Of a stretch of 64,000 bases of DNA, positions 31,327-48,779 are shown in pieces (position 1 is the first letter of the stretch; the number at the start of each line of letters is the position of its first letter). Source of the stretch: Chelativorans sp. J32 (GTDB lineage Bacteria; Pseudomonadota; Alphaproteobacteria; Rhizobiales; Rhizobiaceae); contig NZ_JAEQ01000006.1 of the NCBI RefSeq assembly GCF_000518985.1, forward strand, positions 124,001 through 188,000, written 5' to 3'. Under the pieces are notes generated by a model. It searched no databases. It saw only the letters and a list, made by a program, of their open reading frames with translations, and was not told the origin of the DNA. Made by a program: the position numbers and the translations under genes.

Positions 31327-32145
31327 TCAGTCGGGCAAAACGCTGGGGGCAGAACGAAGATCGGCAGGATCGCAGCTGCGGAAATATTTTATGAAATCCG
31401 CGGCGAAGGAGATGATGTGCTCTGCAAAGGCCGCTCCGATCTCGGCATTGGACAGCCGCGAGTTGCCGCCAATCAGGCCGTGCGGATTGACATCCAGAGC
31501 ATCGAGCGGAACGGCCACCTCGCACTCCTGGAAGGATATCGCCGACAGGCCGACCGTCTCCTGGCCGAACGCTTTCATGGCTTCGCTCGTCTGTTGAAGA
31601 TCGGGCCGCATCAGCTCGGGAAAATAATGCCAGTAGACCGAGGTGATCGGGTCGGCGCCGTGGCCGCCGGCGCGCTCGGCAAGATCGCCGTGCAGCCGCG
31701 TCCAGAGCTCGTGCGGTATGGCCTTCCAGATGTTGATGGAGGGCACGATCAGGCCGGTGCGGATCTTCAGTTCGCGCACGGTCTGGTCGATCAGGCCGGC
31801 ATTGCCCGTATGGCCGTTGAACAGAACGATGCGCCGCAGGCCATGGTCAAGGAAGGCGCTGATCGTGTCCTCGAGGAGCGCGCAGAAGGTCGATGGCCGG
31901 AGCTGGATGCCGCCGGCCATGCCGCGGAAGACATCGGCATAGCCGAAGGGAATGGTGGGGGCGGCAATCGCTCCGGAGCGTTCGGCGACCGCGGCCGCAA
32001 GGCGCTCCGACAGCATGAAGTCGCCCATGGGCGCGTGCGGCCCCTGTTCCTCCTGGCTGCCGAGGGGAATGAGAATGACCGGATCCTCCGCCATGCGCTC
32101 GCGGAATTCCACGAAACTCATATCTTTTAGCAGATGCTTCTTCAT
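31327..32145 (-). CDS. Creatininase-family protein with divergent metal site
   Basis: A 272-residue protein of the creatininase/MftE/ArfB fold. The ATG at 32145 overlaps the ATPase stop as ATGA; the longer frame is out of the transporter's coding frame. The family core is clear: LIPLGSQEEQGPHAPMGD near residue 26, FNGHTGNAGLIDQTV near 115 and GGHGADPITSVYW near 160. The metal site, however, differs from creatininase: the family E-Q-H-G-P-H reads E32-E-Q34-G-P-H37, so the histidine ligand is glutamine, and G-T-D is G-D42-F. It may bind a single metal or use another chemistry on cyclic amides. It is the last gene of the peptide-type ABC operon, so its substrate probably enters by that transporter. 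Confidence 0.8.
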   Translation of the reverse strand: MKKHLLKDMSFVEFRERMAEDPVILIPLGSQEEQGPHAPMGDFMLSERLAAAVAERSGAIAAPTIPFGYADVFRGMAGGIQLRPSTFCALLEDTISAFLDHGLRRIVLFNGHTGNAGLIDQTVRELKIRTGLIVPSINIWKAIPHELWTRLHGDLAERAGGHGADPITSVYWHYFPELMRPDLQQTSEAMKAFGQETVGLSAISFQECEVAVPLDALDVNPHGLIGGNSRLSNAEIGAAFAEHIISFAADFIKYFRSCDPADLRSAPSVLPD

Positions 32146-33128
32146 TGGCCGGCCATTAGCTCCAGGCTCGATTTGCGTGTTTTGGCGCCGTTTGGGTTTA
32201 GGCAGGCGTGGAGGTGATGCGCGGGACCAGCCAGGACCGGTGTCCCGTCGGCGCAGGCGGGAAGCGCGAACGGGCAGCGCGGGCGGAACGGGCAGCCGGC
32301 CTCCACGATTTCCATGCTGTCCACGTCGGCCTCCCACGGCCAGTCGGGCTTCAGGCGGTCGTCCTCCGCCGAAATGGTGGGGATGGAGGCCAGGAGCTGC
32401 TGGGTATAGCGGTGGCGCGGCTGCGAAAACACCTCCGCCACGGCGCCTTCTTCCACCACGAGGCCGCGATACATCACGATCACCCGGCTGGCGAGCACGC
32501 GCACGACGCTGAGATCGTGGGTGATGAAGAGATAGGTGAGGCCGAGCTCCTCCTGCAGCTCCTTCAGAAGCCGCAGGATATGCGCCTGCACGGAGACGTC
32601 GAGCGAGGAGGTGGGCTCGTCGAGCACCAACAGCTCCGGATCCGTGGCGAGAGCGCGGGCGATGGCCACACGCTGCCGTTGCCCGCCCGAAAGCGCAAGC
32701 GGCCGACGGTCCTGCAGGTCGGGATGTAGGCCCACCTTCTCCAGAAGTTCGCCGATCCGCCGGCGCCGTTCGGAGCGGCGGCAGAGATTGTGGACCGAGA
32801 GCGGCAATCCGATCGCCTGGCCGATGGATTTGCGTGGGTTGAGCGTGGAATAAGGGTTCTGCTGCACGAGGCCGATCTGCCGGCGGTCCGCCTTCGAGCG
32901 CCGGCCTGATAATGGCCTGCCCGCCAGGACGATCTCGCCGGCGGACGGCTTTTCGATGCCGAGGACGAGATTGGCGAGCGTTGTCTTGCCCGATCCGGAT
33001 TCGCCGACGATGGCGACCGTCTCGCCCTTGCCGACTGAGAGATCGACGCCCTTCAGAGCCTTCACTTCGGCGCTGCCGACGTGAAAGGTCTTCGCGGCTC
33101 CGCGTATCTCAAGCAGCGGCTCGGTCAT
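32142..33128 (-). CDS. Peptide-type ABC transporter ATPase (DppF/OppF type)
   Basis: A 328-residue ATPase. ATG at 33128 overlaps the other ATPase stop by four bases. Walker A GESGSGKTT near residue 43, Q-loop QNPYSTLNPRKSIGQAI, signature LSGGQRQRVAIARA, Walker B LLVLDEPTSSLDVSVQAHIL and H-loop FITHDLSVVR are all present, and the C-terminal oligopeptide-family domain with CPFRPRCPFA (iron-sulfur/cysteine cluster of OppD/F class) is at residues 283-300. Works with the next ATPase as a heterodimer. Confidence 0.93.
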   Translation of the reverse strand: MTEPLLEIRGAAKTFHVGSAEVKALKGVDLSVGKGETVAIVGESGSGKTTLANLVLGIEKPSAGEIVLAGRPLSGRRSKADRRQIGLVQQNPYSTLNPRKSIGQAIGLPLSVHNLCRRSERRRRIGELLEKVGLHPDLQDRRPLALSGGQRQRVAIARALATDPELLVLDEPTSSLDVSVQAHILRLLKELQEELGLTYLFITHDLSVVRVLASRVIVMYRGLVVEEGAVAEVFSQPRHRYTQQLLASIPTISAEDDRLKPDWPWEADVDSMEIVEAGCPFRPRCPFALPACADGTPVLAGPAHHLHACLNPNGAKTRKSSLELMAGQ

Positions 33129-34090
33129 GCCGCGCTCGCCTCGTGGATGCAGGCGACGCTGCGGCCGGCATCCCGCCGCATCGGCACCGGAGCGTCGCAT
33201 TCGGGCCGAGAGAGCTGGCATCTCGGACGGAAGGGGCAGCCTTCGGCAAGCTTGCTGAGGTCCGGCACCGAGCCTTCGATCGGCTCCGGCAACCGGTCCG
33301 AGGAAAGCCGCGGCACCGAGGCGAGCAGGGCGCGTGTATAGGGATGGCGCGGATCGGCGAAAAGCGCATCCGTCGGCGCGCTCTCGACGATCCGCCCCGC
33401 ATACATTACGCAGACGCGGTCGGCGAATTTGCGAACGACGCCGAGATTGTGGGAGATGAACAAGATCGCCGTGCCGTAGGCTTGCGACAGGTTGCCCATG
33501 ATGTTCAGGGTCTGCTGCTGCACCGTGACATCGAGCGCGGTGCCCGGCTCGTCGGCGATGAGCAGCTTCGGCCGGCTCGCCAGGGCCATCGCGATCATGA
33601 CGCGCTGATTGAGGCCGCCGCTCAGTTGAAAGCTGTAGCTGTCGAGCACGCGCCCGGGGTCGACGATCGAGACGTCGCGCAGCGCGGCGCGCATGTGCTC
33701 CTCCGCCTCCTGCCCCGTCAGGCGCCGGTCGACACGATCCAGCACCGCCGTAAATTGCTGTCTTATCTTGAAAACCGGGTTGAGGGCGGCCATCGGGTCC
33801 TGGAAAATCATGGTGATGTCGCGGCCGCGCCGCGCCTTGGTGCGGGCAGGGGGCTCGCGCAGGATATCGGCGCCCTCGAAGCCGATGCGGCCCGCGATTC
33901 GCACGCGCCGGTCGGGCAGGAGCCCCATGATCGCACGTGCCGTCACGGACTTGCCGCTACCCGATTCCCCCACCAACGCCACGCGCTCGCCCGCGCCCAC
34001 CGAAAGATCGACGCCATGCAACACATGGACTGGCCCGTCATGGGTCTCGAAGGTCAGGTTTAGGTTGCTGATGTGAAGAAGTTCGTGCAT
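33125..34090 (-). CDS. Peptide-type ABC transporter ATPase (DppD/OppD type)
   Basis: A 321-residue ATPase, partner of the DppF-type protein. The frame is open to 34924, but the ATG at 34090 gives the family start and is two bases from the permease stop. Motifs: GESGSGKSV near residue 40, QDPMAALNPVFKIRQQ, a signature of FQLSGGLNQRVMIAMA (with the L-N substitution for the usual M-R-Q), IADEPGTALDVTVQQQ and FISHNLGVVRKF, and the C-terminal CPFRPRC cluster near 290. GGLNQR instead of GGMRQR is seen in some members of the family. Confidence 0.93.
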   Translation of the reverse strand: MHELLHISNLNLTFETHDGPVHVLHGVDLSVGAGERVALVGESGSGKSVTARAIMGLLPDRRVRIAGRIGFEGADILREPPARTKARRGRDITMIFQDPMAALNPVFKIRQQFTAVLDRVDRRLTGQEAEEHMRAALRDVSIVDPGRVLDSYSFQLSGGLNQRVMIAMALASRPKLLIADEPGTALDVTVQQQTLNIMGNLSQAYGTAILFISHNLGVVRKFADRVCVMYAGRIVESAPTDALFADPRHPYTRALLASVPRLSSDRLPEPIEGSVPDLSKLAEGCPFRPRCQLSRPECDAPVPMRRDAGRSVACIHEASAA

Positions 34091-34092
34091 GC

Positions 34093-34941
34093 CTACCCAA
34101 CAATATCGAAGAGGTCGCGCAAGCCGTCGGCGACGAGATTGAAGCCGAGGACGACGATGAAGATCGCAAGCCCCGCCGTCACCGAGAGCCACCAAATGTC
34201 CGGGAGATACTGGGACCCTTCCGAGACCATCGTGCCGAGGTCCGGCGTGGGCGGCGGAGCCCCCATGCCGAGGAAGCTCAGGCTCGCGCCGAGCAGAATG
34301 ACGAAGCCCATGTCGAGGCTCGCCTTGGTGAGCAGGTTGGGCGCGCAATTGGGCAGAAGCTCGCCGAACATGACCCTTATGCGCGAGGCGCCGACGACTT
34401 CCGCGGCGGTGACGAACCCCTCGTGCTTGAGCGAGCGGACGATGCCGTAGACGAGCCGCGCATGCCACGGCCACCAGGCGACGGCCATGGCGATCATGGC
34501 GAGCATCTGCGAGGGCCTTGCAATGCCGAGGATGGCCATAGCGAGAACGAGCGAGGGAATGGCGAGGAAAACGTCGGTGATGCGCATCAGCACGATTTCC
34601 ACCTTGCCGCCGAGATAGACGGCGGTGATTCCGACGATGGTCCCGACGGAGATCGCCAATGAGACGACAGCCAGGCCCAGAATCAGCGAATTGCGGAAGC
34701 CGAAGATGATGCGGCTCAGCACGTCCCTGCCCACACTGTCGGTGCCGAGCCAGTATTGGGCGCTCGGCGGCTTGTTGGCGTCGGCGAAATTCACCACTAC
34801 GCCCGCATGCTCCGGGTAAGGCGCGATGAAAGGCGCGAAGACGGCGCTGAAGATGACGAGGAGGATCAGCACCATGCCGAGGACCGACAGGCGGTTGCGG
34901 GCAAAGCGGCGCCACGCGCGCCATTTCGGATTTGGCTGCAT
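34093..34941 (-). CDS. Peptide-type ABC permease (DppC/OppC type)
   Basis: A 282-residue permease. ATG at 34941 is within the TGATG junction with the upstream permease. It opens with the cytoplasmic N-terminus and first helix of OppC relatives (RFARNRLSVLGMVLILLVIFSAVFAPFIAP), followed by HWLGTDSVGRDVLSRII-like YWLGTDSVGRDVLSRIIFGFR, and the coupling motif EVVGASRIRVMFGELLPNCAPNLL near residue 185. FLGMGAPPPTPDLGTMVSEG is the OppC C-terminal signature. Confidence 0.93.
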   Translation of the reverse strand: MQPNPKWRAWRRFARNRLSVLGMVLILLVIFSAVFAPFIAPYPEHAGVVVNFADANKPPSAQYWLGTDSVGRDVLSRIIFGFRNSLILGLAVVSLAISVGTIVGITAVYLGGKVEIVLMRITDVFLAIPSLVLAMAILGIARPSQMLAMIAMAVAWWPWHARLVYGIVRSLKHEGFVTAAEVVGASRIRVMFGELLPNCAPNLLTKASLDMGFVILLGASLSFLGMGAPPPTPDLGTMVSEGSQYLPDIWWLSVTAGLAIFIVVLGFNLVADGLRDLFDIVG

Positions 34942-35960
34942 CACGCCTTCAACCTGATCTTCGGGTCGATGAAGGAGACAAGGGTGTCGATGAGCATGTT
35001 GATCAGGACGAAGAAGACCGAAATGAACATGACGACCGCCACCATGGCGTTGAGGTCCTTGCGAACGATGGCGTTGACGCCGTATTTCGCCATGCCCGGC
35101 CAGTGGAAGATCGTCTCGACGATGAAGGCGTTGCCGAGCAGGGCGACGATCTGCATGCCGAGAATCATCAGCGTCGGGATGATGGCCGGGCGCAGCGCCC
35201 ATTTGAGCGCGATGGAGCGCTCGGGAAAGCCGTAGGCGCGGGCGAACTCCACGAAGGGCCGGTCGTAGCTGTCCACCATGTTGGTCCGGGTCAGGCGCGA
35301 TATCTGGGCGAGCCCGGGAAGGGACAGCGCCACGGCGGGCAGAACGATATGCGCGAGCGCATCGAGGAATACCTGCCACTCGCCGGCGATGAGGGCGTCG
35401 ACCGTATAGAGGCCGGTGAAGGCGGGGGGAGCGGCCAGGCTTTCGGACAGCCGCCCGGTAAGCGGCAGGACGCCGAGCCAGAAGGACAGGATCAGCATCA
35501 GGAACAGCGCCCACACAAAATTGGGCATGGCGACCGCGAGCAGCGAGAGGATGCGCGCCGAATTGTCGGGCCAGCGGTCCTTGAAGTGGGCGCTGGCGAT
35601 GCCCATGGCGCCGCCTATGAGCGTCATGGCGAGGCCGGCGAAGATCACCAGCTCCAGCGTGGCCGGAAAGGTGGCGGCAATGTCCTGCGAGACCGGATTG
35701 TCCGTATAGAGCGAACGCCCGAAATCGAAATTCACCGCGCCGCCGACAAAGCGCAGATATTGCTCGACGTAAGGTTCATGGAAGCCCATCTGCTGGCGCA
35801 TGGCCTCGACCTGCGCGGCGCTCGCCTCGGGACCGAGCGCCAGCCGGGCAGGATCGCCGGGGATGACGCGGGCTAGAAAGAACATGAAGATCGAAACGCC
35901 GACTATGACGATCACGCCGCTCACGAGCCGGCCGAGCAGGAATTTCGTCATGCCATGCAT
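34941..35960 (-). CDS. Peptide-type ABC permease (DppB/OppB type)
   Basis: A 339-residue permease with the DppB opening FLLGRLVSGVIVIVGVSIFMFFLARVIPGDP and, at about residue 55, an LGPEASAAQVEAMRQQMGF segment. The coupling region is EFARAYGFPERSIALKWALRPAIIPTL near residue 235. ATGs at 35960 and 35951 are both possible. It follows the binding-protein gene after 101 bases that hold a strong stem-loop. Confidence 0.93.
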   Translation of the reverse strand: MHGMTKFLLGRLVSGVIVIVGVSIFMFFLARVIPGDPARLALGPEASAAQVEAMRQQMGFHEPYVEQYLRFVGGAVNFDFGRSLYTDNPVSQDIAATFPATLELVIFAGLAMTLIGGAMGIASAHFKDRWPDNSARILSLLAVAMPNFVWALFLMLILSFWLGVLPLTGRLSESLAAPPAFTGLYTVDALIAGEWQVFLDALAHIVLPAVALSLPGLAQISRLTRTNMVDSYDRPFVEFARAYGFPERSIALKWALRPAIIPTLMILGMQIVALLGNAFIVETIFHWPGMAKYGVNAIVRKDLNAMVAVVMFISVFFVLINMLIDTLVSFIDPKIRLKA

Positions 35961-36061: not shown

Positions 36062-37684
36062 TTAAACGTCCATTGTCATCTTGTCGTACCGGTAATTGCC
36101 GGCCATGATCGGGATCGACGCGGCCGGATCGACGAAGCCGGGCGCCTTCAGGTAGTTCTGGAACGCGACGAGATCCGTTCCCTGATACATGAAGACCGAG
36201 GGGTATTGGTCCGCGATGGTCTTGGCAAGCTCCTTGTAGAGCTCATGCCGTTCCGCCGCGTCCGTGATCTGGCGGCCCTTCTCGAGCGCGGCGTCGATCT
36301 CCGGCATGTGCAGCCAGTGCATCGAAAGATAGGTGCCGGCTGACGAGCTGTGATACTCGCCCCAGAGCATGGAATCGACATCCGTGGTAGAGAGCGACGT
36401 TGCCACGCAGGCGAGGTGGGGCGATGCCTCCGGGCTGGTGGCCATCTCGACGATCTGAGGCCAGGGAGCGGAGGTGATGTTCACCTTGATACCAAGCTCC
36501 GCCAAATTGGCCTGCAGAAGCAGCGCGAACTTTTCCTGCAGCGCCATGCCCTTGAACCAAACGAGATCGAACTCGTGCTGCTGTCCCGCATATTTGGACT
36601 GCGCAAGGGCGGCCTTGGCGGCCTCGATGTCGCGCTTCAAGAGAGGTACGTCCGGGTCGTAGCCCGGCACGTCGGCCGGGATGGGGCCGCGGATCGGAAT
36701 GCCCTGCTGCTGACCGGCTACCTGAAGAAGACCGTAGAGCTGCTCGTAGTCGAAGGCGAGCGCGATCGCCTTGCGGACATTGACGTCGTCCAGCGGCGCC
36801 TTGCGGGTGTTCATCTTGAAATGGAAGATGCTGGGCTTGCGGTCCTGGCCGATGGATATTCCCTCGGACTTCGACAGCGCCAGCACGATCTCGGGCGGCA
36901 GCGGAAGGCGTGTGAGGTCGATCTCGCGGCGCGGCATGAGCTGCCGCACGGCAACCGCCTCGACGCTGAATTTCGAGCGGATAACCTCCGGCGGATTGGA
37001 AGCGAAGCCCGCGAAATAGTCAGGATAAATCTCCATCACGGTCTCGCTCTGCGAGTCGTGCGTGACGATCCTGTAGGGGCCGCTGCCGGCGTCGGCGCTG
37101 CTCAGGAACGCCCCGCCATAGTCCTTGAATTCGCCGAACTCGCCATCCTTCAGATTGGCCATGACGAGTTTCTTATTGACGATGGCAAGGCGCACCAGGG
37201 CGGCGAGGAAAGGCGAGAACGGCTCCTTGAGCTTGAAGACAGCCTTGTTGCCCTCCTGCTCGACCGATTCCACTGCCGAGAACAGGAATGCATAGCCGCG
37301 TTTCATCGTGATCATGCGGTTGGCGGAGAAGACGACATCCTCCGCCGTCAGCGTCGAGCCGTCGTGGAATTTGATGCCGTCGCGAATGGTGAAGGTATAG
37401 GTCTTGCCGTCCTCTGAGATCTCCCACGATTGCGCGACCGAGGGTTCCAGCTCACCGCGCGGCAGCGGCCGCACGAGGAAGTCGTAGAGATTGAACATGA
37501 GGATGGAGCCGGGAAAATCGACGGGCTTATGCGGGTCCGCTTGGCCGATATTGCCGTCGGCAAGCCGCAGCGTGCGCTTTTCCGCCGCCGCGGCGGCTGG
37601 CATGATCGGTCCCAGGCCAAGCGCCAAGCCGGCCGAGGCGGTGGTCGCCAGAAGATGTCTGCGCGTAAGCGTGAAATTTGACAT
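36062..37684 (-). CDS. Peptide-type ABC substrate-binding protein (family 5, Tat signal)
   Basis: A 540-residue periplasmic binding protein of the DppA/OppA family. The start at 37684 (MSNFTLTRRHLLATTASAG) yields a twin-arginine signal with T-R-R-H-L, so folded export by Tat is likely; the longer frame to 37753 lacks this. The fold markers of family 5 are clear: LEPSVAQSWEISEDGKTYTFTIRDGIKFHDGSTLTAEDVVFSANR near residue 80 and DDVNVRKAIALAFDYEQL near 300. It is the first gene of the minus-strand operon that also encodes two permeases, two ATPases and the creatininase-like protein. It is divergent from the AroM-LuxR regulator with a 304-base control region. Confidence 0.92.
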   Translation of the reverse strand: MSNFTLTRRHLLATTASAGLALGLGPIMPAAAAAEKRTLRLADGNIGQADPHKPVDFPGSILMFNLYDFLVRPLPRGELEPSVAQSWEISEDGKTYTFTIRDGIKFHDGSTLTAEDVVFSANRMITMKRGYAFLFSAVESVEQEGNKAVFKLKEPFSPFLAALVRLAIVNKKLVMANLKDGEFGEFKDYGGAFLSSADAGSGPYRIVTHDSQSETVMEIYPDYFAGFASNPPEVIRSKFSVEAVAVRQLMPRREIDLTRLPLPPEIVLALSKSEGISIGQDRKPSIFHFKMNTRKAPLDDVNVRKAIALAFDYEQLYGLLQVAGQQQGIPIRGPIPADVPGYDPDVPLLKRDIEAAKAALAQSKYAGQQHEFDLVWFKGMALQEKFALLLQANLAELGIKVNITSAPWPQIVEMATSPEASPHLACVATSLSTTDVDSMLWGEYHSSSAGTYLSMHWLHMPEIDAALEKGRQITDAAERHELYKELAKTIADQYPSVFMYQGTDLVAFQNYLKAPGFVDPAASIPIMAGNYRYDKMTMDV

Positions 37685-37988
37685 TCCTGTTCCCCTTCTC
37701 AAGCTCAAATCGCCAGCATGAACGGAAGCAAGTCTCGCCTCAACGAGAGGCACCGCATCCGGCTGCCCTTTATGGCTTTGTCGGGCGCGACCGTTCTCCA
37801 GGGCACGTGCCTCGATCCTGCAAACTTATCAAGCCGGTGCGGGTCGAAGAATACGTGGCAGCACTTACAACCGGCATTCGTTGGCACGATGGACGGGGCC
37901 CAGGCAATGTCTATACTCGGCCGAAAACAATGATGCCAAAAGAGGCTAAATGGAGCGTCCGGTCCAAGATGTCGTGTGATTGCCTGGT
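37685..37988. promoter_or_regulatory. Divergent promoter region of the peptide-type ABC operon and AroM-LuxR gene
   Basis: 304 bases without a credible gene between two divergent starts. I see no convincing promoter hexamers or strong dyads; a short frame across it (37678-37992) has no Shine-Dalgarno. It is the natural place for control by the AroM-LuxR protein. Confidence 0.4.
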
Positions 37989-38921
37989 ATGAAAAAGCGG
38001 GTTTGCTTCATAACGCTCGGCCAGTCACCGCGTCCGGAGCTCATTTCGGAAGTGCTGGAGCATATCCGCGAACCAATCGACTACACGGAAATCGGGGCGC
38101 TGGACGGCCTTGCCGAGGATGAAATCGAGCCGCCGCGTTCGCCGCGCGACACGCCACTGGTGACGCGGCTTACCGGCGGCGAACAGGTCGTCGTCTCATC
38201 GGATTTCATCCACAGGCGGCTGGATATCGTGATCGCGCAGGTCGACCGGCTGGGGCACGATCTGCTCGTGCTGCTCGCCAGCGGCATCTTCCGCAAGTTC
38301 GAGACAGTCACGCCGCTCATTCACGGCCAGTTGGCGGTGGATGAGTGGATTGCCTCCTTCATCCTCGGCACGGCGCAGCTCGGCATCGTTTTTCCCCTGC
38401 GGAAACAGGCCTCCGATCCGGTGACGCTCCATGACTACGGCATCCTCATCCAGAACTACCAGACCGTGGCCTATTCCGGCGAGGCAAACCGCATCGACGA
38501 GACCGCGCTCCTGCTCAAGGACGTCGATTTCATCCTTATGCATTCGGTCGGCTACACGAAGGAGATGGCCCAGCAACTGGCGCGCGAATCGCACAAGCCG
38601 GTGGTCACGGCCCGGCGCGTCATCGCCGGGGCGTTCCACCTTCGGCTCATGGAGATGGGAAGCACCGCCCATCACGGCTTTGCACAGGCGAGCGAGCTCG
38701 ACCTGGTGAAGCGCCTGCCGCGGCCGGAAGAGCCGCTCACCGGCCGCGAACAGGAAGTGCTTTCGCTCGTGCTGGAAGGCCGTTCCAACAAGGAAATCGC
38801 CAAGCAGCTCGGCATCAGCCACCGCACTGTCGAGATCCACCGTTCCCGCGCCATGGCCAAGTACAACGCGACGACGGCGATGCAGCTCATCCGCCGCGCC
38901 ATGATCGAGAACCCGGGCTAG
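37989..38921 (+). CDS. AroM-domain/LuxR-HTH fusion transcriptional regulator
   Basis: A 310-residue regulator with an unusual domain pair. Residues 1-225 are an AroM-family domain: VCFITLGQSPRPELISEVLEHI, DYTEIGALDGLAEDEIE, DTPLVTRLTGGEQVVVSSDFI, HDLLVLLASG. AroM is a small protein of unknown function beside aroL in enterics and, in other bacteria, beside DUF917 genes. Residues 245-305 are a LuxR/FixJ helix-turn-helix (LTGREQEVLSLVLEGRSNKEIAKQLGISHRTVEIHRSRAMAKYNATT). No receiver domain or PAS domain is present, so the AroM half is the presumed sensor. An in-frame TTG at 37980 is the alternative start. It faces the peptide-type ABC operon and precedes the monooxygenase/HyuA/DUF917 operon, both likely targets. 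Confidence 0.82.
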   Translation: MKKRVCFITLGQSPRPELISEVLEHIREPIDYTEIGALDGLAEDEIEPPRSPRDTPLVTRLTGGEQVVVSSDFIHRRLDIVIAQVDRLGHDLLVLLASGIFRKFETVTPLIHGQLAVDEWIASFILGTAQLGIVFPLRKQASDPVTLHDYGILIQNYQTVAYSGEANRIDETALLLKDVDFILMHSVGYTKEMAQQLARESHKPVVTARRVIAGAFHLRLMEMGSTAHHGFAQASELDLVKRLPRPEEPLTGREQEVLSLVLEGRSNKEIAKQLGISHRTVEIHRSRAMAKYNATTAMQLIRRAMIENPG

Positions 38922-38937
38922 CTTGTTCTTCGCCTCC

Positions 38938-38953
38938 TACGTGCCGGCACGTA
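38938..38953 (+). promoter_or_regulatory. 16-base perfect palindrome after the AroM-LuxR gene
   Basis: TACGTGCCGGCACGTA is perfectly self-complementary and is followed directly by TTTT. It can act as a short terminator hairpin (6-bp stem, CCGG loop) for the regulator gene or as an operator of a LuxR-type dimer in the 96-base gap before the monooxygenase gene at 39018. Confidence 0.45.
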
Positions 38954-39017
38954 TTTTGCGGCAGGTGGCTTTCATCTACGCTTCGGCAGCTTCGAAAGGT
39001 CCACCCAGGGAGGTGTC

Positions 39018-40388
39018 ATGAGGAAAGCGGGCGCACAGATCAAGCTTGGGGCGTTCCTGACCGCGACCGGCCAGCATATCGCCGCCTGGCGTCATCCCGA
39101 CGTGAAGGCGGACGCCGGCATCGACCTCCAGGAATACATCCGGGTGGTGAAGATCGCCGAGCGCGGCAAGTTCGACATGATGTTCCTCGCCGACAATGCG
39201 GGTATCTGGGACCGGGAGCTTGAGTCCGACGGGCGCTCGTCACGCGCCGCCTATTTCGAGCCGATCACGCTGCTTTCGGCGCTCGCGGCGGTCACGGAGC
39301 GGATCGGGCTGGTGGCGACGGCCACTGCGACCTTCAACGAGCCTTACAACGTGGCGCGGAAATATGCTTCCCTCGACCATCTGAGCGGGGGCAGGGCGGG
39401 CTGGAATCTCGTCACCTCGGCCAACGAGGCCGAGGCCTACAATTTCGGCTTCGACGTCCACCTGGCGCATGCCGACCGCTATGCGCGGGCGCGCGAATTT
39501 GCCGAGATCGTCATCGGCCTGTGGGACAGCTGGGAAGATGACGCGCTGATCCTCGACAAGGAGGGAGGGCGCTTCTTCGACCCGCAAAAGCTCCATATGC
39601 TCAACCATAAGGGCGAACGGTTCACCGTCCGCGGGCCGCTCAACGTGCCGCGCACGCCGCAGGGCCGCCCCATCATCGTGCAGGCGGGCTCCTCCGAAGC
39701 GGGCATGGATCTCGCCGCCTGGTGCGCCGACGTGGTCTTCACCGCGCAGCCGGCTCTCTCCGACGGAATCGCCTTTTACAAAGAGCTGAAGGAGCGCGTG
39801 CGGAAGGTGGGCCGCTCGCCCGACGATCTGAAGATCATGCCCGGCCTTTCCCCGGTCGTCGGCCGCACGCGGGAAGAAGCGCAGGCGAAGTTCCAGGAAC
39901 TGCAGGATCTCATCGATCCTGTTGTCGGCCTCGGCCTCCTGTCGTCCATGGCCGGCCACGACCTTTCCGGGTATCCGGTCGACGGCCCCTTCCCGGACCT
40001 GCCGGACAACAACACCGGCAAGGGCCGGCTGAAGGTGCTGAAGGACACGGCCGCGCGAGAGAACATGACGATCCGCCAGCTCTATACGCGGATCGCCGGG
40101 ACGCGCGGGCACAATCTCGTCATCGGCACGGCGAAGGAGATCGCCGACCAGATGGAGGAATGGTTCACCTCCGAAGCTGCCGACGGCTTCAATATCATGC
40201 CGCAGGCGCTGCCGGGCAGCCTCTCCGATTTCGTCGATCTCGTCATTCCCGAACTTCAGCGGCGGGGTCTTTTCCGCAGGGAGTACGAAGGCAGCACGCT
40301 GCGTGAGCATCTGGGCTTGTCGTGGCCGCATACGCGCCACGCGCTCGCCCGCGATGGCCGAAACGCAAAGCCCGATGCGGCAGAATAG
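39018..40388 (+). CDS. FMNH2-dependent LLM-class monooxygenase (NtaA/SnaA/DmoA family)
   Basis: A 456-residue oxygenase component of a two-component flavin monooxygenase. CAGGGAGGTGTC precedes the ATG. The family opening KLGAFLTATGQHIAAWRHPDV and FDMMFLADNAGIWD, ERIGLVATATATFNEPYNVARKYASLDHLSGGRAGWNLVTSAN and GRPIIVQAGSSEAGMDLAA are characteristic of NtaA (nitrilotriacetate monooxygenase), EmoA, SnaA and DmoA. Such enzymes cleave C-N or C-S bonds or oxidise heterocycles with FMNH2 from a partner reductase, which is the next gene. Loss of a terminal amine or N-dealkylation would fit the cluster. The substrate is unknown. Confidence 0.9.
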   Translation: MRKAGAQIKLGAFLTATGQHIAAWRHPDVKADAGIDLQEYIRVVKIAERGKFDMMFLADNAGIWDRELESDGRSSRAAYFEPITLLSALAAVTERIGLVATATATFNEPYNVARKYASLDHLSGGRAGWNLVTSANEAEAYNFGFDVHLAHADRYARAREFAEIVIGLWDSWEDDALILDKEGGRFFDPQKLHMLNHKGERFTVRGPLNVPRTPQGRPIIVQAGSSEAGMDLAAWCADVVFTAQPALSDGIAFYKELKERVRKVGRSPDDLKIMPGLSPVVGRTREEAQAKFQELQDLIDPVVGLGLLSSMAGHDLSGYPVDGPFPDLPDNNTGKGRLKVLKDTAARENMTIRQLYTRIAGTRGHNLVIGTAKEIADQMEEWFTSEAADGFNIMPQALPGSLSDFVDLVIPELQRRGLFRREYEGSTLREHLGLSWPHTRHALARDGRNAKPDAAE

Positions 40389-40472
40389 GGCGGGGACCCG
40401 ACGCATTCTCCTCGGGTGATGGATTCTCCATCACGCCAAACGCGTCTCCCAAGAGTTTGAAGGAAAAGCGGT

Positions 40473-41045
40473 TTGACAAGAAAGATCATCGGTCTGGCGG
40501 GAAACATACGCCGGCCTTCCAAGACACGGGCGCTCGTAACCAGCCTTGTCGCCGAAACGGCGCGTCAATGCGGCGGCGCAAACGCCGTCTACGACGTGCT
40601 CGATCTCATGCCGGATCTCGGCACCTGCCTCTTCCGCTCGGATGCATCGCCGAAACTCCAGCGGATACTGCAGGATATCGAGTCCGCCGACGGGCTGGTC
40701 GTCGCCAGCCCGGTCTATAAAGGCTCCTATGGTGGCCTCTTCAAGCACCTGATCGACCTTCTCGACCCCAACAGCCTTATGGAAAGGCCGGTCCTGATCG
40801 CCGCCACAGGCGGCGGCCAGCGCCATGCGCTGATGGTGGAGCATCAGATGCGGCCGCTCTTCGGGTTTTTCGGCGCCTCCAGCGTGCCGCTCGCCGTCTA
40901 TGCGTCGGATACGGACTTCAAGGACGGCGAACTGATGGACGAGCAGACGAAGCAGAGATGCGTGATGGCGTGCCGGCAGCTCTCGAACCTTATCAAGCAT
41001 CGCATCCCCTTTGAGACAGACCCGGCTGAGAAGCGCTGGGCGTAG
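40473..41045 (+). CDS. NAD(P)H-dependent FMN reductase (SsuE/MsuE type)
   Basis: A 190-residue flavodoxin-fold reductase beginning at a TTG (40473) with AAGGA upstream. GLAGNIRRPSKTRALV is the FMN phosphate loop (family GSxxxxSxxxxL), and ASPVYKGSYGGLFKHLIDLL is the signature of the SsuE/MsuE/NADPH-FMN reductase family (SPxYxGSYTGLFKHLxDLL). It supplies FMNH2 to the upstream oxygenase, with which it forms an operon. LMVEHQMRPLFGFFGA is the typical C-terminal contact region. Confidence 0.92.
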   Translation: MTRKIIGLAGNIRRPSKTRALVTSLVAETARQCGGANAVYDVLDLMPDLGTCLFRSDASPKLQRILQDIESADGLVVASPVYKGSYGGLFKHLIDLLDPNSLMERPVLIAATGGGQRHALMVEHQMRPLFGFFGASSVPLAVYASDTDFKDGELMDEQTKQRCVMACRQLSNLIKHRIPFETDPAEKRWA

Positions 41046-41068
41046 GGCGGCAACTGGGACCAGGACAG

Positions 41069-42625
41069 ATGTACCGATTGGGAATCGATGTCGGAGGGAC
41101 GAACACGGATGCGGTCATCATGGCCGGCCGGTCCGTCCTTGCCGGTGTGAAAGCCGCGACCACCGAGGATGTCACGAGCGGCGTGATCGAGGCGATGGAG
41201 GCGGCCATCTCCAAGGCCGCCGTGGAGCGCTCGAAGATCACGCATGTGATGATCGGCACCACGCATTTCACCAATGCCGTGATCGAGCGCAAGCACGTCA
41301 ATCCGGTGGCGGCGATCCGTCTCTGCCTGCCGGCCACCGCCTGCCTGCCGCCGATGGTGGACTGGCCGGAGGATCTGCGCCAGACCGTCGGCGGGCATCG
41401 CTACCTGGTGCGCGGCGGCTATGAATTCGACGGCCGCGAGATCGCTCCGCTCGACATCGATGAGCTTGACCGGATCGCCGCGGACATAAGCGCCAAGGAA
41501 CTGAAGGCCGCAGCGATTACCTCCGTCTTCAGCCCGATCAACGCGGCCATGGAGACGGCGGCTCGCGACCACCTCATGAAGCGCTGCCCCGGCCTGCGAG
41601 TGGTCGTCTCCAGCGATATCGGCCGCATCGGCTTGCTCGAACGCGAGAGCGCGGCGATCATGAATGCCAGCCTGCTCGAGCTCAGCGGCCGCACGGTCGA
41701 TGCCTTCGGAAGGGCGCTCCAGGCGGCAGGGCTCAGCTGCCCCTTCTTCATCACCCAGAACGACGGCACGCTGATGGGCGCCGAAATGGTGCGGGAATTC
41801 CCGGTCCTCACCTTCGCATCCGGACCCACCAATTCGATGCGCGGGGCAGCCTTCCTCACAGGGGAAAGCGATGCCATCGTGGTCGATATCGGCGGTACGA
41901 CCACGGACATAGGGGCTATCCAGCGCGGCTTCCCGCGCCAGGCATCGACGGTGGTCGATATAGGCGGTGTACGCACTAATTTCCGCATGCCTGACGTCTT
42001 CTCCATCGGGTTGGGCGGTGGCTCGCTCGTCCGCGGGACAGGCGGAGCGACAAGCGTCGGGCCGCAATCCGTGGGCTATCGCATCACGAAGGAGGCGCTG
42101 GTGTTCGGCGGCGGAACGCTGACGGCGACCGATATCGCCGTCGCAGCCGGCCGCGCATCGATCGGCAATCCCGCAGCGGTCGCCTCGCTTTCCGGCGAAC
42201 TCGTCGGCGAGGCTCTGGCCGAGATCGTTCAGATGCTGGAACGGGGCGTGGAGCGCAGCCGCATCTCGCCTGAGCCGATACCGGTGATCGCGGTGGGCGG
42301 CGGCTCCATCCTCATGCCGGAGAGGCTCGGCGACCTGCGCGTAATCCGTCCGGAGAACTTCGCCGTCGCCAACGCGGTGGGGGCTGCGATCGCGCAGGTG
42401 AGCGGCGAGGTGGACCGCATCTTCTCGCTCGCCAACGGGCTCACCCGCGAGACCTGCCTGAAACAGGCGGAGGAGGAAGCGCGCGAGAAGGCGATGCGCT
42501 CCGGCGCCGCGCCGGCGACCATCACCGTCATCGAACGCGAGGACGTGCCGCTCGCGTATCTTCCCGGCAATGCCACCCGCATCCATGTGAAGGTGGTCGG
42601 CGAGATGGATGGCGTACATGCTTGA
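41069..42625 (+). CDS. Hydantoinase/oxoprolinase subunit A family protein (HyuA type)
   Basis: A 518-residue actin-like ATPase-fold protein of the HyuA/OplA/AcxA family, which hydrolyse cyclic amides or carboxylate ketones with ATP. Motifs: LGIDVGGTNTDAVIM (phosphate 1), THVMIGTTHFTNAVIER, VLTFASGPTNSMRGA, VVDIGGTTTDIGAIQRG (phosphate 2) and IAVGGGSILMPERL. It is at the short end of the family (full 5-oxoprolinase alpha halves are about 690). There is no HyuB (the beta subunit) beside it; two DUF917 proteins follow instead, the first overlapping its stop by 17 bases. This HyuA-DUF917 pairing recurs in bacteria and probably replaces HyuB. Confidence 0.85.
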   Translation: MYRLGIDVGGTNTDAVIMAGRSVLAGVKAATTEDVTSGVIEAMEAAISKAAVERSKITHVMIGTTHFTNAVIERKHVNPVAAIRLCLPATACLPPMVDWPEDLRQTVGGHRYLVRGGYEFDGREIAPLDIDELDRIAADISAKELKAAAITSVFSPINAAMETAARDHLMKRCPGLRVVVSSDIGRIGLLERESAAIMNASLLELSGRTVDAFGRALQAAGLSCPFFITQNDGTLMGAEMVREFPVLTFASGPTNSMRGAAFLTGESDAIVVDIGGTTTDIGAIQRGFPRQASTVVDIGGVRTNFRMPDVFSIGLGGGSLVRGTGGATSVGPQSVGYRITKEALVFGGGTLTATDIAVAAGRASIGNPAAVASLSGELVGEALAEIVQMLERGVERSRISPEPIPVIAVGGGSILMPERLGDLRVIRPENFAVANAVGAAIAQVSGEVDRIFSLANGLTRETCLKQAEEEAREKAMRSGAAPATITVIEREDVPLAYLPGNATRIHVKVVGEMDGVHA

Positions 42626-43736
42626 ACGGACGAGCGGCTTTCTTCTCGACGAGCGGAAGATCGATGCGCTTGAGATCGGCGCCGCGATCCTCGGGACCGG
42701 CGGCGGTGGCAATCCCTATATCGGCAAGCTGCGCGCCCGCGAGGCGCTGCGGCAGGGCTTCAAGATGCGGATCGTGCCGCTCGAGACGCTTCCCGACGAT
42801 GCCGTCGTCGTTTCCCTGGGCGGCATCGGCGCGCCGCTCGTCTCGCATGAGCGGATCAAGGAGGGGAAGGAAGGACTGAGATGCATCCGGGCGCTGGAAG
42901 AGCGGCTCGGCATTTCCGTCGATGCGGTCGCCTGCGAGGAGATCGGCGGGCAGAACGCGATGGAGCCGCTGATCACCGCTTCCGCGGCCGGGCTCCCCGT
43001 CGTCGACTGCGACGGGATGGGCCGCGCCTTCCCCGAGATGCAGATGACGACCTACTCCATATACGGCCATCGGTCGACGCCCAGCGTGATGTGCGACCTG
43101 CATGGGAATGTGGTGATCTTCGAGCACGCGGCCTCGGAAAAATGGCACGAGACCATGGCGCGGGCCTGCGTCGTGGCGCAGGGCGGCGCGTCGACGCTTG
43201 CAAGCGCGCCAATGTCGGGAAAATTCCTGAAGCAGTTCGCCATCCCCGGCTCTTACAGCCGGGCCATGGCACTCGGCGAAGCCGTCCTGACGGCGCGGCG
43301 CGCGCATGCTGATCCGATCTGCGCCATATGCGAGAGCGAAAATGGGAGAATGGTCTTCCGGGGGAAGATCGCCGATGTCAGCCGTACGATCGCCGGCGGC
43401 TTCGTGAGAGGCAAGGTGCACCTTACCGGCTTCGATCAGTACGAGGGAGACGAGGGCTCGGTTCTCATCCAGAACGAAAACCTCGTGTTCCTGCGCAATG
43501 GCGCGGTCGAAGTGGTCGTTCCCGACCTCATCGTGATTCTCGACGTGGACAGCGGCGAGGCCATCACCACCGAGATGCTTCGCTATGGCCAGCGGGTGGC
43601 CGTTCTCGCCCTTCCATGCCACCCGTTGCTCCGCTCCGAAGCGGCGCTGGAGGTGGTCGGCCCCAAGGGATTCGGCCTTGAAGGGATCGATTACAGGCCA
43701 ATGTGCGAGCAGGAACGGGAGAGGGTGGCTCGATGA
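42609..43736 (+). CDS. DUF917 family protein, copy 1
   Basis: A 375-residue protein of the DUF917 family. Both ATGs at 42609 and 42618 are possible. ALEIGAAILGTGGGGNPYIGKL near residue 20 (glycine-rich, GTGGGG), VACEEIGGQNAMEPLITA near 108, and DCDGMGRAFPEMQMTTYSI near 132 are the family hallmarks. The C-terminal half contains VPDLIVILDVDSGEAITTEMLRYGQRV. The biochemical role is unknown, but family members are linked to HyuA and are likely catalytic partners in ring hydrolysis. It overlaps the upstream HyuA gene by 17 bases and the second copy by four. Confidence 0.82.
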   Translation: MAYMLERTSGFLLDERKIDALEIGAAILGTGGGGNPYIGKLRAREALRQGFKMRIVPLETLPDDAVVVSLGGIGAPLVSHERIKEGKEGLRCIRALEERLGISVDAVACEEIGGQNAMEPLITASAAGLPVVDCDGMGRAFPEMQMTTYSIYGHRSTPSVMCDLHGNVVIFEHAASEKWHETMARACVVAQGGASTLASAPMSGKFLKQFAIPGSYSRAMALGEAVLTARRAHADPICAICESENGRMVFRGKIADVSRTIAGGFVRGKVHLTGFDQYEGDEGSVLIQNENLVFLRNGAVEVVVPDLIVILDVDSGEAITTEMLRYGQRVAVLALPCHPLLRSEAALEVVGPKGFGLEGIDYRPMCEQERERVAR

Positions 43737-44818
43737 CATCATTCCAGGTGATGCCGCAGGACATGGAAGCGATCGCGACGGGCGGTGCGTTTCTAGGCAC
43801 GGGCGGCGGTGGAGACCCGTATATCGGCAAGCTGATGGCGCAGTCCGTGATGGCGGAGAAGGGGCCGGTGACGGTGATTTCGCCCGACGACGTCGAGGAC
43901 GACTGGCTTTGCCTGCCAGTGTGCATGATGGGCGCGCCGACCGTAATGGTGGAGAAGCTACCCAACGGATCGGAGGCCGGTTCCGCCCTGGCGCAGCTCG
44001 AGGCCTTTCTCGGGCGCAGGGCCGACGCGCTGATCTGCATCGAGGCCGGCGGGCTCAACTCGACAATTCCCTTCGCCGTCGCCTCCGCCACCGGCCTGCC
44101 GCTGATCGACGGCGACGGGATGGGCCGGGCCTTCCCGGAACTGCAAATGGTGTCCTTCACCATGCACAGCGTTTCGGCAACGCCCATGGTGCTGGCCGAC
44201 GACAAGGGCAACAGCTCCATCATCAACGCGATCTCCAACCGCTGGACGGAGCGTCTCGCCCGATGCCAGACCGTGGAAATGGGGGGAGCGGCCCTGGTGG
44301 CGCTCTACCCGATGAGCGGGGCAGAGGTGAAGCGCGGCATCCTTCGCCACACCCTGTCGCTTATCAAGGAGATCGGCGAGACGATATCGGCGGAGCGGAA
44401 TGCACACCGCAATCCCGCAGAGGCGCTGATCAGGCGTCTTGGCGGCAAGCGCCTGTTTTCCGGCCGGGTCGCCGATATAGACCGGCGGACCGTAGGCGGA
44501 TTTGCGCGCGGGCAGGCGCTATTCAAGGGGATGGAAGCGGACGAGGGGAAGAGCTTCCGCGTCGATTTCCAGAACGAATTCCTGATTTGCCGAGGCGACG
44601 ATGGCGCCCCGATGGCGATAACGCCCGACCTGATCTGTGCGCTCGACGCCGACGGAGGCCTTCCGGTGACCACGGAGCAGCTCCGCTATGGCCTGGCCGT
44701 GACGATGATTGGCCTGCCCTGCGACGAGCAGTGGCGGACGCCGGCCGGGCTCGATCTCGTCGGTCCCGCCTATTTCGGCTACAATCACGAATACGCGCCG
44801 TTACACAGCCTGTCCTGA
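43733..44818 (+). CDS. DUF917 family protein, copy 2
   Basis: A 361-residue paralogue of the preceding gene. Its ATG at 43733 overlaps the stop of copy 1 as ATGA, which sets the start; the frame to 43703 is an extension. It keeps GTGGGGDPYIGKLMAQ, CIEAGGLNSTIPFAVASATGLPLIDGDGMGRAFPELQMVSFTMH and PDLICALDADGGLPVTTEQLRYG. In copy 1 the E-I-G-G-Q-N motif becomes E-A-G-G-L-N here. Tandem DUF917 genes suggest a heteromeric complex, as for two halves of a duplicated enzyme. End of the operon that began with the monooxygenase. Confidence 0.82.
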   Translation: MTSFQVMPQDMEAIATGGAFLGTGGGGDPYIGKLMAQSVMAEKGPVTVISPDDVEDDWLCLPVCMMGAPTVMVEKLPNGSEAGSALAQLEAFLGRRADALICIEAGGLNSTIPFAVASATGLPLIDGDGMGRAFPELQMVSFTMHSVSATPMVLADDKGNSSIINAISNRWTERLARCQTVEMGGAALVALYPMSGAEVKRGILRHTLSLIKEIGETISAERNAHRNPAEALIRRLGGKRLFSGRVADIDRRTVGGFARGQALFKGMEADEGKSFRVDFQNEFLICRGDDGAPMAITPDLICALDADGGLPVTTEQLRYGLAVTMIGLPCDEQWRTPAGLDLVGPAYFGYNHEYAPLHSLS

Positions 44819-45009: not shown

Positions 45010-45954
45010 ATGAACCTCAGAAGCATCCCCGTGGCGCAGCTCTTGGAGTTGCTGGCGGTGGTCCGGTGTGGCAGCATCAATCGGGCCGCTCAGGAGCTGA
45101 ACACCACCCAGCCCACGCTGACCAGAAGCATCAAAAGGCTGGAGGACCGGCTGAGGGTGCCTCTGCTTCAACGAACCGCACATGGCGTGACGCCATCCGA
45201 ATACACCAAAGCGATGCTCCCTTTCCTCCAGAGCATCGAGAGCGACTTCAGGAAAGCCTTGGCGGAAATTGAGGCTGCCACCGGAGCCGGCGCGGGCAAG
45301 ATCTGCATCGGCTCGACGGCCATGGTGGCAAACAAGATCGTCCCGCAGGTGCTTGCCCGGTTTGTCCCGCGCTGGCCGCATCTGACCATCGAATTCGTCG
45401 AGGACCGCAAACCCGCCCTGCTCGAGGGATTGCGGAGCGGCAAATACGATTTCGTCATGGCCCTCATGAGCCCCGAGGAGCAGGCGCGGGACATCCTGCA
45501 GCAGGAACTTTTCACCGACACGCTCGTGGTCATTGCCCGCCCGGGCCATCCTCTTACCAAGCTTTCGTCCCTGTCCGTGCGCGATATCGTCCAGTGCAAA
45601 TGGATCCTGCCTACGGAGGGGCTCGACCTGCGCAGCCGCCTGGAGAATTTCTTCCGTAACGAAGGACACGACGTGCCGGCGTTCCCGGTCGAAACGACGC
45701 TCTTTACAGCGATCGTCGCTCTGGTGAAGAGCACCGACCGGATCTCCGCGATTCCATCCGTGGTCGTAAGGGACGAACTGCTCAGCGGCGAGCTTGTAGC
45801 GCTGCGCGGCCCTTGGAACTTCATCCACCGCTCGTTCAGCGCCTATTTCAGGCGCGGGCATACGCTCTCTCCTTCCGCCCGCGAGCTGTTCCGGGAAACC
45901 CGCCGATATATTACCGAACTCGGCGTCAACGTTCAGAAGGCGGCTGCCGAATAG
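45010..45954 (+). CDS. LysR-family transcriptional regulator
   Basis: A 314-residue regulator. GAGGAGGCGAGCCA precedes the ATG. Residues 5-65 form the winged helix (PVAQLLELLAVVRCGSINRAAQELNTTQPTLTRSIKRLEDRLRVPLLQRTAHGVTPSEY), followed by a two-lobe effector domain (KICIGSTAMVANKIVPQVLARFVPRWPHLTIEFVED). It lies upstream and in line with the dipeptidase/TctCBA unit. LysR members usually activate a neighbouring operon in response to its substrate. The 190-base gap on its left after the DUF917 operon suggests a separate promoter. Confidence 0.9.
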   Translation: MNLRSIPVAQLLELLAVVRCGSINRAAQELNTTQPTLTRSIKRLEDRLRVPLLQRTAHGVTPSEYTKAMLPFLQSIESDFRKALAEIEAATGAGAGKICIGSTAMVANKIVPQVLARFVPRWPHLTIEFVEDRKPALLEGLRSGKYDFVMALMSPEEQARDILQQELFTDTLVVIARPGHPLTKLSSLSVRDIVQCKWILPTEGLDLRSRLENFFRNEGHDVPAFPVETTLFTAIVALVKSTDRISAIPSVVVRDELLSGELVALRGPWNFIHRSFSAYFRRGHTLSPSARELFRETRRYITELGVNVQKAAAE

Positions 45955-46108
45955 GTCAGAGGGCACTTTTGCTGCGCTAATGGAGGATGGCTATACACTT
46001 CAGGCATAACCCCGTGCCTCAATGCATTGGCGAAATGCTCCAGCTTGGAGTGAACTCCAATATGGGTTCCGGTCGGAATTCGAGATGCAGCAGCCGCAAG
46101 AGGGAGTG

Positions 46109-47182
46109 ATGTCGTACTACGAATTGTCCGCCGATGAGGATTTGAACATCCTTAGACTGCATGAAAAGGCGATCGTGTTCGACGGTGCCTTCCCGATGCT
46201 CGGCTTCTACAAGGCGCCCGAGGAGGAAATCGACGCTTTCCTTAAGGGCGGCGTGACAGGCGGGAACGCGACGCTCTCTTCCGACGAAACCGATTTCTCC
46301 GGCGCGATCGCGAATTTCCGCAACCTGAAGGCTCTCATTTCGCGCAATAGCGATCGGATGGCCCTTTGCACGCGTGCGGCCGATATCGAGCGTTGCAAGC
46401 GGGACGGCAAGATTGGCATGGTTCCCTTCTTCCAAAATCCCAAGCCGATTGCAGACCGGCTGGCCGATCTGGAGATTTTCTACGAGCTGGGCCTGCGCGT
46501 ATTCCAGATGACATACAACAATCTGGGCTTCATCGGCGCCGGCTGTTGCGAGCGCAACGATCCGGGGCTGAGCAATTTTGGCATCGAGGTGGTGAGCAAA
46601 TGCAACGAGCTCGGCATTCTGCTAGACATCTCCCATTGCGGGCCGGCGACATCCTGGGACACGCTGAAGTTTTCCAAGGCGCCCGTGGTCGCCAGCCATT
46701 CGGGTGCATATGCCCTTGCGCGCGCCTTCGGGCGCAATAAACCCGACGACATGTTAAAGGCGGTGGCTGACACGGGTGGACTGGCAGGCATTCCCTTCTT
46801 CCCCTGCCTCGTGAAGAGAGATCCGGAGACGCATGTCGTGCAGCCCTCCACCGTCGAGGACGTCATCGACCATATCGACCACGCCGTCGAGATCATGGGC
46901 ATAGACCATGTGGGAATTGCTTCCGACATGTCCTCCCATCTGGCGCGTACCCTGGAGCTTACGCGCGACTCGGTGCTGCGCACCACGCGACTGCGTCATC
47001 CGGAGGTGTTCGGCGTCGGGCCTACCGATCGCTACGATCCTTATCCGGCGGGTTTGGACAGCCATGCCAAAATGCTGAACCTCAGCCGCGGGCTCCACAA
47101 ACGCGGCTATGCCGAAGGCGATATCATAAAGATACTCGGGGGAAACTGGATGCGCGTCTACAGCGCAGTGTGGAAGGACTAG
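46109..47182 (+). CDS. M19 (renal/membrane dipeptidase) family protein lacking canonical N-terminal metal ligands
   Basis: A 357-residue TIM-barrel protein. The ATG at 46109 follows GAGGGAGTG; the frame to 46022 has no start signal. M19 dipeptidases normally have D-G-H-N-D near the N-terminus, but here the segment reads FDGAFPML, so both ligands of the HxD pair are missing (A27 and P29). The later E of the E-G motif is replaced by Q in FFQNPKPI. The other two histidines (LLDISHCG near 200 and VASHSGAYAL near 220) and the Asp of HVGIASDMS remain. This pattern is seen in a non-canonical dipeptidase subgroup, whose activity is not established. It heads the TctCBA unit. Confidence 0.72.
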   Translation: MSYYELSADEDLNILRLHEKAIVFDGAFPMLGFYKAPEEEIDAFLKGGVTGGNATLSSDETDFSGAIANFRNLKALISRNSDRMALCTRAADIERCKRDGKIGMVPFFQNPKPIADRLADLEIFYELGLRVFQMTYNNLGFIGAGCCERNDPGLSNFGIEVVSKCNELGILLDISHCGPATSWDTLKFSKAPVVASHSGAYALARAFGRNKPDDMLKAVADTGGLAGIPFFPCLVKRDPETHVVQPSTVEDVIDHIDHAVEIMGIDHVGIASDMSSHLARTLELTRDSVLRTTRLRHPEVFGVGPTDRYDPYPAGLDSHAKMLNLSRGLHKRGYAEGDIIKILGGNWMRVYSAVWKD

Positions 47183-47250
47183 AGGGGAAGGCAGGGTTAA
47201 CCTGACCGTCACAAAAACCGACAAGGGGAATTCGTGAGGAGAACAATGCG

Positions 47251-48216: not shown

Positions 48217-48291
48217 ACGAGTCAGGAGGGCAGGCGGATCGCTGCGGCCGCCCCCCTGCATCCGTCGATCCCAACTTGCGGAGCAACCGCA

Positions 48292-48765: not shown

Positions 48766-48779
48766 GAACGGAGCCGCAC

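Follow-up and report, generated by a model that had tools for sequence, protein, structure and literature searches.

Architecture of the AroM–LuxR fusion

The DNA analysed here (the window) is a 64,000-nucleotide (nt) stretch of contig NZ_JAEQ01000006.1 of the soil bacterium Chelativorans sp. J32, in which a gene at 37989–38921 on the forward strand encodes a 310-amino-acid (aa) regulator composed of an AroM domain and a LuxR/GerE-type helix-turn-helix (HTH). It lies between a divergent peptide-type ATP-binding cassette (ABC) transporter operon and an operon headed by an NtaA-type monooxygenase gene. The protein starts at an ATG; the mechanical open reading frame (ORF) begins earlier, at TTG 37980. 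In a Pfam scan (E up to 0.01), AroM (PF07302) matches residues 6–213 (38004–38627, forward strand; model positions 2–212 of 219) with E 8.4e-38 and 130.5 bits against a curated cut-off of 23.8, and this domain is the proposed ligand sensor. The GerE/LuxR HTH matches residues 249–304 (38733–38900, forward strand; E 9.6e-19, 67.2 bits, cut-off 23.5). The remaining seven Pfam families are HTH or sigma-factor models on the same C-terminal stretch, and no receiver, PAS or autoinducer family was found at this threshold. A reading made from the letters of the window (the sequence-only reading) had described this fusion and had named a failure of profile searches to support AroM as its refutation, an outcome that did not occur; its view of a one-component regulator with an unusual sensor is supported by the domain architecture. 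By these domain tests, the protein belongs to both the AroM and the LuxR-HTH groups.

The fusion scores below the equivalog cut-off of NCBIfam PRK10481 (111.5 bits against 198), which we take to be the E. coli-type AroM model, and so is not classed as equivalent to that protein. It is the sole AroM match in the 4.7-Mb genome. Its closest named relative is the 94% identical copy in Chelativorans multitrophicus DSM 9103 (locus L032), and comparison of the two genes indicates purifying selection (nonsynonymous to synonymous rate ratio, dN/dS, 0.079), with zero non-synonymous changes in residues 245–310. Public records annotate such fusions as ‘AroM family protein’ or ‘hypothetical protein’, names that conceal the regulator.

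Fold and missing cysteines of the sensor domain

The structure check suggested in the same reading predicted a racemase-type fold for the AroM domain of the fusion. The fold of AroM had already been noted in PMC11055893, in which AroM and DUF917 proteins are called not experimentally characterised. Unfused AroM proteins carry a cysteine pair that is in register with that of 2eq5. In the alignment, the first motif cysteine (CTG) corresponds to Ala97 of the window protein (38277–38279, forward strand) and the second (D/H-C-M-G/S-Y) to Ser186 (38544–38546, forward strand). The window protein thus lacks the catalytic cysteine pair by which members of the Asp/Glu/hydantoin racemase superfamily were recognised, and for this reason it is not filed as a racemase.

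Both motif cysteines are absent in all 31 distinct fusions collected, the residue pairs at the two positions being S/S (21), A/S (3), T/S (3), S/A (2) and M/S (2). Among 60 distinct unfused AroM rows (all those with E up to 1e-10 in the fetched loci), 45 have both cysteines, seven have the second only, and eight remote rows have no second-position cysteine, six of these having no letter aligned there; an earlier count of 40 unfused rows gave 38 with both and two with the second only. Motif residues common to unfused AroM are retained in the fusions: G11, P14, R15, L38, D39, G99 and G132 are fixed in 31/31, and Q140 and P136 are kept in 30/31. Across fused and unfused AroM together, G11 and P14 are fixed and R15, L38 and D39 nearly so, which is as expected if the pocket were kept. 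The racemase-type fold and the loss of both cysteines in every fusion make ligand binding more plausible than the fusion alone would. Judging from entry titles, there are ligand-bound structures of relatives in which the second cysteine is changed, and one of these proteins, C194S, is reported to have still formed a covalent intermediate, so that one missing cysteine alone does not mean an inert protein.

The seven unfused AroMs that keep only the second cysteine (L064–L067 and L069–L071) belong to one family, which we take to be enterobacterial. A one-cysteine pattern is that of the decarboxylase AMDase, and the activity of these seven may differ from that of two-cysteine AroMs.

A recurrent dyad beside the fusions

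Reading of the intergenic gaps beside the fusions revealed a recurrent 18-bp dyad, MTASG-N8-CSTAK. It is exact in 25 of 41 gaps and present with at most one mismatch in 34 (gaps above 600 bases, namely those downstream in L086 and L139 and upstream in L145, were skipped), compared with means of 0.017 and 1.57 gaps in 60 rounds of dinucleotide shuffling. No exact dyad occurs in 22 fusion-free AroM loci (378 kb). In 420 kb of 21 fusion loci, the true loose pattern was found 25 times and the reversed pattern 15 times, and 24 of the 25 sites fall within fusion-side gaps. Nine loci fetched afterwards, eight of them with fusions, were then scanned with the pattern: it is exact in L179, L181, L182 and L183, solely in gaps beside the fusion, and occurs with one mismatch in L178 and L184 and with two in L185, while L180 has none at up to one mismatch. 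Of the full set of 30 loci, 22 carry exact sites, 30 in total, and 29 of these sites fall in fusion-side gaps. The single exact dyad elsewhere (L077:11464–11481) precedes further transporter-like genes and suggests a third target.

In 15 of 23 loci, the dyad is centred 61.5–62.5 nt ahead of the DUF917 start codon, and in 4 of 4 it is centred 72.5–75.5 nt ahead of the NtaA start (start codons chosen by script); its distance to the start of the fusion itself is variable. In the window, the candidate operator CTACGTGCCGGCACGTAT (38937–38954), whose inner 16 bases form a perfect palindrome, is centred 72.5 nt before the NtaA start codon. The site and its flank are identical in L032, and the outer arms are kept in L033 and L034, where the rest of the gap is mostly changed. 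A degenerate second candidate site, ATACGTGGCAGCACTTAC (37851–37868; two mismatches), lies between the ABC operon and the fusion; it is identical in L032, and its counterpart in L033 and L034 is ATACGTGCAAGCCCTTAC in the gap between SBP5 and DUF917.

The strict operator MTACGTGCNNGCACGTAK has one perfect place in the genome, two with two mismatches and others with three, 38937–38954 being the only place with fewer than two. A wide regulon was considered and rejected, since the strict pattern has fewer places in all (35) than its reversed control (47); from this and the single perfect place, the regulator is taken as local. The sequence-only reading had made the entire region its regulon. This is supported only in part, by the one strong candidate operator before the NtaA operon; the ABC side has only the degenerate conserved site, and nothing links genes past 44818 to the regulator.

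A further inverted repeat, GCTAG-N3-CTAGC, was seen by eye between the dyad and the DUF917 start in L085, L078, L135, L136, L139 and L141, and may belong to the promoter. The HTH residues before TVEIH seem to track the fourth operator base (SHR with TACG, SPK with TAGG, SPR and SHK often mixed), a hint of correspondence that is confounded with ancestry.

Distribution and ancestry of the fusions

Overlapping genome surveys, which sample the larger groups, yielded fusions in 5 of 101 relatives, 3 of 397 genomes of the order, 14 of 394 of the family and 9 of 385 of the class. No fusion other than that of the window was found in 398 genomes of the phylum. In 293 genomes of the class of G744 there was none, and the only AroM match was the unfused AroM of G744. 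Plasmid records added the fusions of Shinella sp. HZN7, Neorhizobium sp. NCHU2750 and Ketogulonicigenium vulgare (four plasmids counted once), all Alphaproteobacteria according to the records, and a scan of genome contigs added that of Xaviernesmea oryzae. From one set of five loci, L035 and L036 were dropped because they match the HTH alone. With duplicates removed, the collection comprises 31 distinct fusions from 30 loci, all within the class of the window.

In a tree of 71 rows from which the cysteine columns had been removed, the fusions form one clade (99/98), and its neighbour is a group of tandem unfused AroMs. Neorhizobium sp. NCHU2750 offers an example of a tandem locus, with its unfused AroM at L085:13071–13751. 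In the simplest history, duplication and fusion would each have happened once, and the cysteine pair would have been lost a single time. Two fusions occur in one genome (L182:8396–16721), separated by about 7 kb that include an ABC operon: one lies beside DUF1177 and an unfused AroM, the other beside DUF917-HyuA.

Gene neighbourhood

Downstream of the fusion on the forward strand, the predicted target operon begins with an NtaA/DmoA-family flavin mononucleotide (FMN)-dependent monooxygenase gene (39018–40388; TIGR03860, 598 bits, cut-off 279.7). It continues with genes for an MsuE-type FMN reductase (40473–41045; TIGR03566, 251.5 bits, cut-off 212.5), a 518-aa HyuA-type hydantoinase/oxoprolinase subunit (41069–42625; Pfam) and two DUF917/S-Me-THD proteins (42609–43736, Pfam PF06032 and PF20906; 43703–44818, Pfam). 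On the reverse strand, the divergent peptide-type ABC operon begins with an SBP5 solute-binding protein gene (36062–37684; Pfam SBP_bac_5, start codon chosen by eye), followed at 31327–35960 by genes for DppB, DppC, two DppD/F-type ATPases and then a creatininase. All the neighbours named in the sequence-only reading (luciferase-like/NtaA-type monooxygenase, HyuA, two DUF917 proteins and a peptide-type SBP5/Dpp ABC operon) are thus present.

Its proposal that AroM co-occurs with DUF917 and HyuA also withstood the tabulation of neighbours across the 31 fusions, and the absence of such a link, which it had named as refuting, was not the outcome. Within 6 kb of the fusion, HyuA is found in 30/31, DUF917 in 29/31, a peptide-type ABC component in 27/31 and another AroM in 20/31; a second AroM lies within 1.3 kb in 17/31. 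In the commonest layout, HyuA-DUF917 diverges from the fusion, which is followed by an unfused AroM, SBP5-DppB and ATPase genes. In the subclade of the window (the window, L032, L033 and L034), the NtaA-type monooxygenase and FMN reductase adjoin the fusion instead. Unfused AroMs are likewise found beside DUF917/HyuA or DUF1177/OPT, with at least one of these in 18 of 21 fusion-free loci and none in L103–L105. Both Pfam and NCBIfam take the name of DUF917 from S-methyl thiohydantoin desulfurase; because the window proteins score far under the NCBIfam desulfurase cut-offs, the name does not point to their exact substrate.

The monooxygenase and MsuE-type reductase of the window suggest an extra oxidative step. 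An ethylenediaminetetraacetate (EDTA)/nitrilotriacetate (NTA) operon, a reading prompted by the closeness to Chelativorans together with the NtaA-type enzyme and SBP5 transporter, was rejected: the monooxygenase is much nearer to 7e36, YtnJ and MoxC (384–398 bits) than to the EDTA monooxygenase 5dqp (248 bits). Beyond the operon, at 45010–50237, genes for a LysR regulator and for an M19 membrane dipeptidase (Pfam) are followed by genes that by eye resemble those of a Tct-type tripartite transporter; together they seem to form a separate unit for uptake and peptidase activity. Elsewhere in the genome (contig C14, L191:7604–14504), a second HyuA-DUF917-DUF917 set lies beside a 996-aa LuxR-HTH frame and an ABC-type ATPase gene, with no AroM, the one AroM match of the genome being that of the window. 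The same enzyme set is thus accompanied by two different LuxR-type proteins in one genome.

Proposed mechanism and alternatives

The fusion is probably a pseudo-enzyme that senses a ligand and activates the genes for cyclic-amide catabolism next to it, a reading in which we infer the ligand, the DNA binding and the direction of control. It would act as a local one-component transcription regulator whose N-terminal half shares its origin with racemase-fold AroM enzymes, unfused AroM being presumably an enzyme. An AroM copy would have been fused to a LuxR-type HTH and have lost the two motif cysteines, and with these gone the fusion should bind an enzyme-type ligand without turnover. The ligand would probably be an amino-acid-derived cyclic amide (hydantoin- or diketopiperazine-like) or its ring-opened product; a cyclic amide appears most likely because of the naming of DUF917, the hydantoinase/oxoprolinase identity of HyuA and the peptide-type transporters. 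The fusion would bind the MTASG-N8-CSTAK dyad, a motif established by its recurrence, as a dimer, and the position of the dyad before DUF917 or NtaA suits an activator of transcription. In the window, the target would be the NtaA-FMN reductase-HyuA-DUF917-DUF917 operon (39018–44818), and a weaker site would serve the ABC-transporter side. A more tentative extension, for which doubt slightly outweighs confidence, is that AroM was duplicated in place: one copy would have stayed a cysteine-bearing enzyme, and the other, having lost both cysteines and taken the LuxR HTH, would sense the substrate of its twin and control the shared operon through its own operator.

Control might instead be exerted by a repressor whose dyad overlaps the promoter and which the ligand releases, as the TATA-like letters within or beside several dyads could indicate. 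Yet with a leader of about 20 nt, the near-constant spacing of 61.5–62.5 nt in 15/23 loci would bring the dyad centre to around −40, where LuxR-type activators have their sites; repression is thus unlikely. The loss of both cysteines, and the fact that no ligand is known, would also suit an AroM half that binds no ligand and serves as a scaffold or for dimerisation, leaving the HTH constitutive or set by protein amount. We consider this improbable, as the seven motif residues listed above stay fixed in 31/31 fusions and the linkage to one kind of catabolic locus suggests a substrate-responsive switch. A bifunctional trigger enzyme, combining cysteine-independent catalysis with regulation, is very doubtful: although the predicted fold is kept and 29/31 fusions have serine at the second position, two have alanine there, the first position varies among S, A, T and M, and an unfused two-cysteine AroM lies within 1.3 kb in 17/31.

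Several observations weigh against an activating pseudo-enzyme sensor. The first cysteine is also missing from seven unfused AroMs and the second from eight remote ones, and since the fusions form one clade, the 31 losses are not 31 independent cases and may be a single event. The motif was defined after inspection of the first 22 fusions, and the loose pattern also has one exact match in 25 unrelated LuxR-type loci totalling 79 kb. Single dyads are mostly no better than shuffles, so the case for the operator lies in recurrence. Seven of the 41 gaps, including the ABC-side gap of the window, have no site at up to one mismatch, nor do L145, L180 and L185 in the gaps tested. The spacing departs from 62 nt in 8/23 loci; L181 and L183 have the site 22.5 nt ahead of the start of the fusion itself and 184 nt ahead of DUF917. 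Finally, no AroM enzyme adjoins the fusion in the subclade of the window and none is found elsewhere in its genome, which weakens the idea of a ligand shared with the enzyme for the window copy.

A regulator that binds the pathway inducer and has a predicted operator could reveal what AroM/DUF917 loci degrade, and a soluble one is suited to simple binding and reporter screens. Were the twin duplication true, the ligand of the fusion would be the pathway substrate or product, a direct route to the AroM/DUF917 substrate. The fusion would also illustrate cleanly how the fold of an enzyme can become a ligand sensor; in 17/31 cases, an unfused relative with both cysteines adjoins it.

Comparison with known systems

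Nothing on an AroM–LuxR pairing was seen in the literature searched, which omits most subscription journals. Unfused AroM (PF07302), found beside DUF917/HyuA or DUF1177/OPT, has the same domain, predicted fold and genomic setting as the fusion, but has no HTH and keeps the second motif cysteine in 52/60 rows. The Asp/Glu/hydantoin racemase superfamily (2eq5, MurI, AllR, maleate isomerase, AMDase) has the fold in common with the fusion, which differs in lacking both cysteines and in having a DNA-binding domain. With LuxR/NarL/GerE-type regulators (VqmA, GerE, FixJ), it shares the C-terminal HTH, whereas its sensor belongs to none of the receiver, PAS-type and autoinducer domain families; assignment to quorum-sensing LuxR proteins or two-component response regulators failed, as no autoinducer-binding or receiver domain was found (Pfam, E up to 0.01). 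The 996-aa LuxR-HTH frame of the same genome (L191:7604–10591) likewise lies beside DUF917/HyuA, but is large, has no AroM and resembles, as we presume, LAL/MalT regulators. In MocR/GabR, an aminotransferase fold joined to an HTH is likewise an enzyme fold reused as a sensor, although the fold and the HTH family are others and these regulators are cofactor-dependent.
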